This document shows positions 1,673 through 5,228 of a DNA stretch of 64,000 nt, one piece after another. Made by a program: the position numbers and the translations under genes. The stretch is taken from contig QBKD01000001.1 of assembly GCA_003053925.1 (NCBI GenBank), forward strand, positions 1,426,001 through 1,490,000. The letters are read 5' to 3'. Every line of letters begins with the position of its first letter. Positions within the stretch are counted from its first letter, which is position 1. The notes beneath the pieces are model-generated. The model ran no database searches. It was not told where the DNA came from and worked only from the letters and a program-made list of their open reading frames with translations. This stretch comes from Microbacteriaceae bacterium MWH-Ta3. Its GTDB lineage: Bacteria; Actinomycetota; Actinomycetes; Actinomycetales; Microbacteriaceae.

Positions 1673-1825
1673 TTCACGGCAGCGGTTCCTCGTGGTGCGA
1701 CACGCGCCTGAAACATTTGCCGCATTCGTTAACCTGCAGGAAACCTCACACACGATTCGCCGAAACGCAACCCCCAGAACATAGAGGCAGGTCGAAAGAC
1801 CACCACACTATGAAAGGGAACTGTT

Positions 1826-3028
1826 ATGGAATCTGGAAACTTGACGTGGGCGGTTGTGGCCACAGCACTTGTGCTGTTCATGACGCCAGGCGTCGCATTC
1901 TTCTACGGTGGCCTCGTGAAGGCCAAGAGCGTTATCTCGATGATGATGATGAGCTTCGGCGCAATCGGACTCATCGGAGTCCTCTGGATTCTCGTGGGCT
2001 TCAACATGTCGGCGGTTAGCGATGTGTGGCAATTCGCGGGTGATCCGTTCAGTAACTTCGGCCTTGCCGCCGCAGACAACGAGACTCTGATTGGAGCTGC
2101 ATACGGCGCAACCTTTGCGATTATTACCGTTGCCCTGATCTCGGGTGCCATTGTTGACCGTGCGCGTTTCGGGGCCTGGATGGTCTTTGTTGCGATCTTT
2201 GGTGTCTTCGTGTACTTCCCCGTCGCAGCATGGGTATGGGGCGGCGGCTGGATCATGGGCCTTGGTGAAACGCTGGGACTGCCCGGTGTTATTGACTACG
2301 CCGGTGGAACCGCGGTACACATCAACGCAGGTGCCGCTGCTCTGGCGCTGGCTTTGGTATTGGGTAAGCGCGTGAAGTTCGCAAAGGGCACTCACCAGCC
2401 ACACAACGTACCCCTGATGCTCATTGGTGTCGCGATCCTGTGGTTCGGCTGGTTCGGTTTCAACGCTGGCGCTGAATTCCTCGGCGACATGGGTGGTGTC
2501 GGTCTGATCACGATTAACACGCTGGGCGCAACTGCCGCCGGTATCCTCGGCTGGATGCTCGTCGAAAAGATCAAGGACGGCAAGGCAACGAGCGTTGGCG
2601 CAGGTTCTGGTGCCGTCACGGGTCTGGTAGCTATTACTCCTGCATGTGCCAACCTCACACCCGGCTGGGCGCTGGTTTTGGGACTCATTGCGGGTGCCAT
2701 CAGCGCACTGGCAATTGAACTGAAGTTCAAGCTGGGCTTTGACGACTCGCTCGATGTTGTGGGAATTCACCTCGTCGCTGGTTTCATCGGAACGGTGTAC
2801 CTGGGCTTCTTCGCAACCGACACCGGACTGTTCACGGGTGGCGACACGGGTCAGCTCGTCGTGCAGCTCATCGCCTCGGTGGGCGTCATGATCTACTCGT
2901 TCGTTGTGTCCTTGATTGTCGGATACGCCATCGAAAAGACCATCGGCTTCCGCTTGAAGCCCGAGGACGAGATGGCCGGTATCGATACCGTCGTGCACGG
3001 TGAAGTCGGATACGCCATCAACGACTAG
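1826..3028 (+). CDS. amtB: Ammonium transporter AmtB, first copy
   Basis: Amt/Mep/Rh family integral membrane channel for ammonium uptake, 400 residues with about 11 hydrophobic segments and no separate signal peptide. Visible family features are FFYGGL near residue 25, the conserved Asp157 in VIDYAG, the first twin-His His165 in AVHINAG and the second twin-His His316 in VVGIHLVAG. The ATG at 1826 follows AAAGGGAA. It is followed by two hairpins and then by a second amt gene whose protein is very similar by eye. No glnK (PII) gene is attached, although amtB-glnK-glnD is the common actinobacterial order. The 153 bases upstream (1673-1825) hold no gene and no operator that I can name. Confidence 0.95.
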   Translation: MESGNLTWAVVATALVLFMTPGVAFFYGGLVKAKSVISMMMMSFGAIGLIGVLWILVGFNMSAVSDVWQFAGDPFSNFGLAAADNETLIGAAYGATFAIITVALISGAIVDRARFGAWMVFVAIFGVFVYFPVAAWVWGGGWIMGLGETLGLPGVIDYAGGTAVHINAGAAALALALVLGKRVKFAKGTHQPHNVPLMLIGVAILWFGWFGFNAGAEFLGDMGGVGLITINTLGATAAGILGWMLVEKIKDGKATSVGAGSGAVTGLVAITPACANLTPGWALVLGLIAGAISALAIELKFKLGFDDSLDVVGIHLVAGFIGTVYLGFFATDTGLFTGGDTGQLVVQLIASVGVMIYSFVVSLIVGYAIEKTIGFRLKPEDEMAGIDTVVHGEVGYAIND

Positions 3029-3031
3029 AAC

Positions 3032-3068
3032 TTCGTGGGGGCACATTCGGGTGGATGTGCCCCACGAA
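3032..3068 (+). terminator. hairpin after the first amtB
   Basis: Arms at 3032-3046 and 3055-3068 pair over 14 bp with one bulged G and an 8-base loop, three bases after the amtB stop. There is no T tract, so it may be an mRNA-stabilising hairpin or a non-canonical terminator. Confidence 0.5.
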
Positions 3069-3091
3069 CCTCTCACATCACTATCTGCAAC

Positions 3092-3116
3092 ACGTGCGTA
3101 ACGTACGCACGTTTTT
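3092..3116 (+). terminator. intrinsic terminator between the two amtB genes
   Basis: A perfect 9-bp stem (3092-3100 with 3104-3112), a 3-base loop and a run of five T at 3112-3116 make a canonical intrinsic terminator. It implies that the second amtB has its own promoter. Confidence 0.8.
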
Positions 3117-3203
3117 GTAATATCCCCGAAACATTGGGGGAGCCTCCCTGTAATCCTTGTGCCGCACCATGGTGACACCACCACACAGCGACAGGGGACA
3201 TCA

Positions 3204-4409
3204 ATGGATACTGGGCACATGGTCTGGGCCGTGATGGCAACGGCACTCGTACTCTTCATGACACCGGGACTCGCGTTTTTCTATGGAGGCCTCGTGAAGG
3301 CCAAGAGCGTTATCTCCATGATGATGATGAGCATCGGTTCTATCGGGCTCATCGGCGTTCTGTGGATCCTTTTCGGCGACAGCATGAGTCGAGTCGCTAA
3401 CCCGGGTGATTTCGCCGGTAACCCGTTCGGAGATTTTGCCCTCGTAGCGGCAGACAACGAGCGACTTCTGCAGTCCGCCTTCGCCGCCTCGTTTGCGATT
3501 ATCACTGTTGCGCTTATTTCGGGCGCAATCGCTGACCGAGCGAAATTCGGCGCATGGATGGTCTTTGCAGGGCTTTACGCCGTACTCGTGTACTTCCCGG
3601 TGTCGGCGTGGGTGTGGGGCGGTGGCTGGATTCAGCACCTCGGCGAATCGCTCGGACTTCCCGACGTGATTGATTACGCGGGCGGACTCGTCGTCGAAAT
3701 CAATTCGGGTGCAGCCGCGTTGGCGCTGGCTCTAGTCTTGGGCAAGCGTGTCAATTTCGGTAAGGGCGTCCACCAACCTCACAACGTGCCGCTGACTCTG
3801 ATTGGGTTTGGAATTCTCTGGTTCGGTTGGTTCGGGTTTAACGCGGGCGCGGCAGCGTTCGGGGACATGTCGACAATCGGCGTCATCTTCATGAACACCT
3901 TTGCGTCAAGCGCCGCCGGTATTTTGGGATGGATTGTCATCGAGAAGTTCAAGGACGGTAAGGCCACCAGCGTTGGCGCAGCGAGTGGCGCGGTGGCGGG
4001 ATTGGTGGCCATTACTCCGTCGTGCGCGAATTTGACGCCGGGCTGGTCATTGCTCTTGGGTGCGATCGCAGGAATCATCTCGGCCTACGCCATCGAGTTG
4101 AAGTTCAAGCTGGGCTTCGACGACTCGTTGGATGTTGTGGGATTGCACCTCGTAGCCGGCCTTGTCGGAACGCTCTATCTGGGGTTCTTCGCAACCGGCA
4201 CAGGGCTCTTCACGGGTGGCGATCTGGGTCAATTGGCAGTGCAGTTGATTGCGGCCTTAGCCGTGCTCGTGTACTCGTTCTTTGCCGCGCTCATCATCGG
4301 CTTCACGGTCGACAAGTTCATCGGTTTCCGGATTCACTCGGATGATGAGCTTGCCGGAATCGACACCGTGGTTCACGGCGAGCTGGGATACGCGCTCGAA
4401 GCCGACTAA
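3204..4409 (+). CDS. amtB: Ammonium transporter AmtB paralogue with Glu at the first twin-His site
   Basis: Second Amt family channel, 401 residues and collinear with the first copy. ATG 3204 (MDTGHMVWAV) follows ACAGGGGACA and matches the N-terminus of the neighbour; an upstream in-frame start at 3159 lacks this match. Asp157 and the second twin-His His316 are present, but the first twin-His is replaced by Glu165 (codon GAA at 3696-3698, context LVVEINSG). The same His-to-Glu exchange is known in fungal Mep1/Mep3 transporters, where it changes transport properties. The two copies probably arose by tandem duplication and may have specialised for different pH or ammonium conditions; that part is inference. 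Confidence 0.94.
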   Translation: MDTGHMVWAVMATALVLFMTPGLAFFYGGLVKAKSVISMMMMSIGSIGLIGVLWILFGDSMSRVANPGDFAGNPFGDFALVAADNERLLQSAFAASFAIITVALISGAIADRAKFGAWMVFAGLYAVLVYFPVSAWVWGGGWIQHLGESLGLPDVIDYAGGLVVEINSGAAALALALVLGKRVNFGKGVHQPHNVPLTLIGFGILWFGWFGFNAGAAAFGDMSTIGVIFMNTFASSAAGILGWIVIEKFKDGKATSVGAASGAVAGLVAITPSCANLTPGWSLLLGAIAGIISAYAIELKFKLGFDDSLDVVGLHLVAGLVGTLYLGFFATGTGLFTGGDLGQLAVQLIAALAVLVYSFFAALIIGFTVDKFIGFRIHSDDELAGIDTVVHGELGYALEAD

Positions 4410-4932: not shown

Positions 4933-5004
4933 GGGCGATTGGCGCAGCGGTAGCGCGCTTCCCTGACACGGAAGAGGTCACTGGTTCGATCCCAGTATCG
5001 CCCA
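4933..5004 (+). tRNA. tRNA-Val (anticodon GAC), with encoded CCA
   Basis: A 72-nt cloverleaf with acceptor arms GGGCGAT/ATCGCCC, anticodon stem CTTCC/GGAAG and loop CTGACAC giving GAC. The discriminator A at 5004 is followed by CCA at 5005-5007, unlike the four other tRNA genes in the window. The 3' part of this gene, from T4982 through the CCA, is the first 26 bases of a 79-nt unit that then repeats in tandem. Confidence 0.97.
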
Positions 5005-5228
5005 CCAACTTTTACACGGAAGACCGAGCCTGTGGCTCGTCTCACCACGGTGTGGTTCGCTGGTTCGATCCCAGTATCGCCCACCAACTTTTACACGGAA
5101 GACCGAGCCTGTGGCTCGGCTCACCACGGTGTGGTTCGCTGGTTCGATCCCAGTATCGCCCACCAACTTTTACACGGAAGACCGAGCCGGTGGCTCGGCT
5201 CACCACGGTGTGGTTCGCTGGTTCGATC
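4982..5228 (+). repeat. tandem array of 79-nt units derived from the 3' end of tRNA-Val(GAC)
   Basis: Three complete units (4982-5060, 5061-5139, 5140-5218) and a 10-base start of a fourth (5219-5228). By eye they differ at two positions: T5040 is G in units 2 and 3, and the T in the first hairpin loop becomes G in unit 3. Each unit has the tRNA T arm, 3' acceptor strand and CCA (26 nt), then 53 nt holding ACACGGAAGA (also in the tRNA anticodon arm, 4966-4975), a hairpin CCGAGCC/GGCTCGG (one pair shorter in unit 1) and a small hairpin ACCAC-GGT-GTGGT. No 5' tRNA half is repeated, so the extra copies cannot fold as full tRNAs. The period is not a multiple of three, which argues against a coding role. 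The function is unknown. Confidence 0.93.

Follow-up and report, generated by a model that had tools for sequence, protein, structure and literature searches.

A tandem pair of ammonium transporters in a Microbacteriaceae genome, with glutamate at the first twin-His position of the second copy, and similar pairs in other bacteria and archaea

Introduction

Amt ammonium transporters are commonly described as sharing, almost universally, a twin-His pair in the pore; Glu at the first position counts as an exception of fungi, and its purpose is under debate. Open-licence papers treat this Glu as a variation of the fungi (PMC9040831, PMC3647058), and the consulted part of a 2023 review of prokaryotic Amts (PMC10433425) makes no mention of a natural prokaryotic variant; a subscription journal may have published one earlier. 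In yeast, transport by the Glu-bearing Mep1 is electrogenic and acidifies the cytosol, that by the His-bearing Mep2 is electroneutral, and the H194E mutant of Mep2 acidifies the cytosol like Mep1, a shift towards Mep1 (PMC7048316). For this contrast between Mep proteins, PMC10794816 cites pH optima of 6 and 4.

The same substitution has been engineered in E. coli AmtB. Compared with the parent protein, AmtB H168E has a Km of 12.9 versus 0.8 mM, and its currents are larger (22.3 versus 3.4 nA) and faster (PMC9040831). In vitro it shows no K+ current, and its current is only partly lost in D2O, which was read as behavior that is part transporter and part channel (PMC9040831). Here we describe a natural bacterial counterpart that stands directly behind a canonical amt gene.

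The tandem amt locus

The window analyzed is a stretch of 64,000 nucleotides from Microbacteriaceae bacterium MWH-Ta3, and its + strand carries two tandem amt genes. The first, amt1 (1826..3028, + strand), encodes a canonical twin-His ammonium transporter of 400 aa, and the second, amt2 (3204..4409, + strand), encodes a 401-aa ammonium transporter in which Glu takes the place of the first twin-His residue. The two proteins are 73% identical and are the only two Amts of this small genome (1.56 Mb, 99.9% complete). The amt2 product scores 351.4 bits against PF00909 (cut-off 23.2) and 357.3 against TIGR00836 (cut-off 343.3), and the amt1 product likewise lies above both cut-offs. The AF2 model of Amt2 (pLDDT 94.7) has the eleven-helix Amt fold, with Z scores of 59.8 to AfAmt1 (2b2f) and 58.5 to AmtB (2ns1).

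A GC-rich hairpin read directly from the sequence lies 3' of amt1 (3034..3066, + strand; loop region TCGGGTGG). Hairpins that resemble it and have an identical loop lie between the two amt genes in G131 and G272, genomes of two further species of the genus, and we infer that it is a terminator. A second terminator-like hairpin followed by a T run (3092..3117, + strand) came from a scan in which shuffled sequences gave about equal frequency, and is weak evidence alone. Antisense to amt1, the - strand contains an open frame of 483 codons (1808-3259), for which codon bias is the likeliest explanation. Further downstream, just 5' of thrS, a 79-bp unit is repeated in 3.1 copies with 98% match (4981-5228); the repeat begins within the tRNA-Val(gac) gene (4933-5007) and copies its 3' end together with a terminator-like hairpin.

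Pore residues of Amt1 and Amt2

An earlier note on this DNA had claimed that residue 165 is His in Amt1 and Glu in Amt2. The open frames and codons bear this out: codon 165 is CAC in amt1 (2318..2320, + strand) and GAA in amt2 (3696..3698, + strand), the alignment of the two proteins is gapless there, and GAA is also the codon in G131 and G272. The second His is kept in both proteins as the note said, at residue 315 rather than 316 (CAC at 2768..2770 in amt1 and 4146..4148 in amt2, both + strand). Residue 165 aligns with AmtB His168 and residue 315 with AmtB His318, and the match of the AF2 fold to AmtB is consistent with residue 165 being the first twin-His position. The note had allowed that a structure-based alignment might place a different His at this position. 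This does not apply: the sequence alignment puts residue 165 at the site, and the confident Amt2 model, which superposes on AfAmt1, AmtB and the AmtB H168E structure 2now, is consistent with it at the level of the whole fold.

The rest of the pore is intact in Amt2, including the Phe gate, the Trp, Asp157 and the second His. AmtB F107, W148, D160, W212 and F215 correspond to F97, W138, D157, W209 and F212 in both Amt1 and Amt2; AmtB T273 and H318 are also kept in both, and AmtB S219 is Ala in both. Amt1 thus has both histidines of the twin-His, while Amt2 has Glu165 and His315. By profile, fold and the other residues, Amt2 remains an Amt, as fungal Mep1 is. Three residues after the Glu, codon 168 of amt2 (3705..3707, + strand) encodes Ser where amt1 has Ala; the AmtB equivalent is Ala171.

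Regulation

A putative GlnR-type box, TTAAC-n6-GAAAC-n17-GAAAC, lies 5' of amt1 (1729..1766, + strand), 97 bp upstream of the gene's start. It agrees with the published GlnR consensus (PMC10704036), is the genome's best match to an a-b-b GlnR box and is the sole match, at <=1 mismatch, to GTNAC-n6-GAAAC-n17-GAAAC in the whole genome. The putative box 5' of amt2, GTAAT-n6-GAAAC (3117..3132, + strand), is one base off consensus. A looser pattern, [GT]TAA[CT]-n6-G[AC]AAC, which was relaxed by one base after the amt2 box was seen, has only two matches when both strands of the 64 kb window are counted, one ahead of each amt gene. Boxes at -90/-71 also precede the Glu copies of G131, G272 and an Aurantimicrobium-like genus (g60). 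GlnR itself is encoded in the genome (GlnR_1st, PF21695, 101.8 bits), and a sigma-70 promoter scan gave no matches. Since each gene has its own box and hairpins lie between them, amt1 and amt2 look like two separately promoted members of a GlnR regulon. All three Amts of M. smegmatis belong to the GlnR regulon (PMC3662644).

No PII gene (GlnB/GlnK, PF00543) was detected in this genome, while 13 of 14 control genomes gave a match. In a cell that has GlnR and two Amts but no detected PII, ammonium uptake would proceed without the usual PII gating.

Glu-type Amts in other bacteria and archaea

A scan with the motif D[FY]AGGxxVEIxx[GA], using one genome per species, returned at least 116 stretches, at least 114 of which encode Amts with Glu at this site by phmmer and motif. 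Among the listed Glu-type matches, 94 are from Actinomycetota (Streptomyces, Mycobacterium, Nocardia, Rhodococcus, Arthrobacter and others), 9 from Pseudomonadota, 4 from Planctomycetota, 4 from methanogens, 2 from Bacillota and 1 from another group; these counts are bound by the motif and the listed matches and are not frequencies. A frequency was taken instead from a sample of 296 Actinomycetota genomes with a pattern that permits His, Gln, Asp or Glu at the site. The 103 matches, which represent pattern-fitting Amts only, divide into 92 with His and 11 with Glu (~10%), and none of the 103 has Asp or Gln. A hand count found a His copy as well in 9 of the 11 Glu-bearing genomes. Having one Amt of each type is not unusual among bacteria, and the combination genuinely recurs in prokaryotes.

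Further His/Glu pairs, in tandem or close together, are present in Nocardioides, Marmoricola, Pseudonocardia, a Clostridia genome and Methanoregula. In the Nocardioides, Marmoricola and Clostridia loci the order is amt-glnK-amt-glnK, with one Amt of the His type and the other of the Glu type, each with what appears to be its own PII gene behind it, recognized by signature regex only. In the archaeon Methanoregula, a Glu-type and a His-type amt are adjacent and a PII gene follows the second.

Comparison of the Glu and His proteins showed that, after column 165 itself, column 168 separates them best, with Ser in 34 of 40 Glu rows and Ala in 34 of 40 His rows. In phylogenetically independent pairs, ~4.3 of 7 are for this association and 0.1 against, which falls short of significant covariation with residue 165 (sign test p ~0.125, for a column picked after the scan). 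The change from Ala to Ser tends to accompany the Glu in these alignments.

Phylogeny and conservation of the Glu copies

The earlier note had proposed an alignment of related Amts to see whether Glu165 defines a clade. On an 80-sequence tree built without column 165, the Glu label requires 10 changes, at least 7 of them forced by well-supported branches, so Glu165 is polyphyletic rather than a clade marker, and a single Glu clade is rejected both by these forced changes and by the AU test. Because the root of this tree was not inferred, gains and losses of Glu are not separable overall. The direction is clear for the genus studied here: its Glu copies group at 100/99 within a clade of the genus's His and Glu copies at 99/99, which is nested in a large His clade of the family. 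This topology indicates that Glu arose in this genus after a duplication within the genus. More broadly, the tree points to His -> Glu having arisen repeatedly in bacteria and archaea, usually beside a standard copy.

Within the genus we surveyed 15 genomes for amt genes. G131 and G272 have the same tandem His/Glu pair with Glu in the second copy. Three others (G231, G596 and G598) have the His copy only, at an intact zapE-amt-tRNA-thrS locus, and in G594 and G597 the contig ends within amt1. Two further members, with an estimated completeness of 94-95%, had no Amt match at E <= 1e-30, from loss or an assembly gap.

Function of the Glu copy and alternative explanations

We consider it probable that amt2 is a functional second transporter, a tandem duplicate of amt1 that arose within the genus and was re-tuned by the change of the first His to Glu, together with Ala168 -> Ser. 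By analogy with engineered AmtB and yeast Mep proteins, Amt2 is most likely a working transporter whose filter passes charge more readily, and the best reading of the evidence is a working second Amt with an altered proton/ammonia path that would be faster and less tight. Counting against this explanation, amt2 has been lost, or was never gained, in three sister species.

The proposed mechanism would run as follows. Under nitrogen limitation GlnR would induce amt1 and amt2 together. Amt1 would act like AmtB, with NH4+ deprotonated at the entrance, NH3 passing via the pore and H+ running along water wires that His165 joins. The carboxylate of Amt2 would increase pore hydration and ease the passage of charge; turnover and Km would be higher and the handling of protons would differ, but the retained His315 would preserve much of the selectivity. 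Such a cell could scavenge tightly by one route and use the other, faster one for pulses, or where pH or membrane potential differs. The two uptake modes of differing pH behavior that the earlier note supposed are an extrapolation from engineered AmtB and the Mep proteins of yeast. AmtB, a bacterial His-type protein, is itself electrogenic, and the yeast contrast between electroneutral and electrogenic transport may therefore not carry over. We found no measurements on prokaryotic Glu-type Amts in the open-licence literature, and a natural Glu copy that co-evolved with Ser168 need not behave like the AmtB H168E point mutant. The putative nitrogen-limitation boxes on both genes argue against a low-affinity or purely high-ammonium role for Amt2, which they would fit poorly.

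Several other accounts of amt2 were weighed. The earlier note had named a sequencing error as a possible source of the Glu, and a decaying pseudogene would be a related explanation. We found nothing in support of either and regard them as refuted: CAC -> GAA needs two substitutions, the same residue stands in three species, the frames are open and free of stops, and the Glu copies are under strong purifying selection, with an NG86 dN of 0.12-0.21 between species against a saturated dS of 2.0-2.8 and thus a dN/dS well below 1. A second account concerns origin. Because the Aurantimicrobium-like pair has the same place and order, we considered that both genera share one ancestral His/Glu duplication that was homogenized by gene conversion outside the filter. 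Gene order, zapE-amtH-amtE-thrS, is identical in two loci of that genus (L149 and L153), and amt1 and amt2 share one identical DNA tract of 29 bp. However, a single clade of the genus's Glu copies, the Aurantimicrobium-like Glu copies and L061 is rejected (AU p = 0.00036), the His and Glu copies of the genus cluster with each other at the 99/99 noted above, and synonymous identity between amt1 and amt2 is not above that of orthologues, with no second long tract. Single-His relatives also have this locus, so the interval between zapE and thrS is simply where amt sits. A shared ancestral pair with conversion is therefore disfavoured and in our judgment improbable, and the tree instead suggests that the Glu of this genus was gained independently of the Aurantimicrobium-like one.

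The remaining accounts concern what the Glu does. It might be functionally near neutral, with amt2 kept only for gene dosage, and both the growth of AmtB H168E and H168D on low ammonium (Hall and Kustu, cited in PMC3647058) and the patchy presence of amt2 in the genus would fit this. Yet a neutral site should drift, and only His or Glu occurs among the 103 Actinomycetota matches although Asp and Gln were permitted; Glu is also kept in three diverged species with Ser at +3 alongside, and the kinetics of AmtB H168E are measurably different. We consider near neutrality unlikely. Alternatively, Amt1 and Amt2 could form heterotrimers in which amt2 mainly modulates Amt1, or supplies a regulatory or sensor subunit, rather than an independent uptake mode. 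Amt proteins are trimers, yeast Mep proteins show cross-talk in which inactive Mep1 inhibits Mep2 and Mep3 (PMC10433425), and the two genes are adjacent, each with a GlnR-type box; but many Glu-type Amts elsewhere adjoin their own PII gene, like independent Amts, and this account seems to us quite unlikely. A re-tuned, functional second transporter remains our preferred explanation.

A wider proposal, which we advance tentatively and with slightly less than even confidence, is that His -> Glu is a repeatedly selected switch after duplication in bacteria and archaea, accompanied by Ala -> Ser, that would give a cell two parallel ammonium pathways like those of yeast Mep2 and Mep1. If the Glu evolved several times in prokaryotes, natural pairs separated by only 73% identity would provide a test bed for the role of the first His in affinity, turnover, proton coupling and selectivity. 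It would also mean that annotation as an Amt alone does not reveal a microbe's uptake mode.

Comparison with known systems

The engineered AmtB H168E (2now) has the same substitution at the same position of the same fold as Amt2, and the Amt2 model matches it with VIA Z 51.6 and an rmsd of 2.1 over 352 residues at 39% identity. Amt2 differs in being natural, in having Ser at +3 where AmtB has Ala171, and in having Ala at the position of AmtB Ser219. The amtB-glnK pairs, in which the Amt is gated by PII, differ from this genome in the absence here of any PF00543 match.

The Aurantimicrobium-like pair shares the arrangement, with the zapE-amtH-amtE-thrS locus, His first and Glu second, a GlnR-type box before the Glu copy and no PII gene seen nearby; it is only ~59% identical to amt2 and, by the tree and AU test, would have gained its Glu independently. 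Glu-types of Streptomyces, Mycobacterium, Nocardia and Rhodococcus also have Glu at the first and retain His at the second position, and most of the sampled genomes have an additional His-type Amt. They are ~45-50% identical to amt2 and form an older clade, and those of Streptomyces adjoin a PII gene, which this genome lacks.

Fungal Mep1 and Mep3 resemble Amt2: they naturally have Glu at the first position, keep the second His and coexist with a paralogue of the His type (Mep2). The earlier note's description of the Amt2 filter as Mep1-like is apt for this Glu and goes too far beyond it: ScMep1 has a further Glu right before the second His (PMC9040831), where Amt2 has Leu314. None of the 40 prokaryotic Glu-types sampled has Glu there, and all 40 have V, I, L or C. 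The prokaryotic Glu-types would have arisen separately from the fungal ones, and several times, from His-type prokaryotic Amts. Amt2 represents a natural, recurrent and testable filter change in prokaryotic proteins whose family and fold are ordinary. Repeated evolution of this Glu in prokaryotes, in most cases next to a normal copy, would make it an option for adaptation and not just an oddity of fungi.
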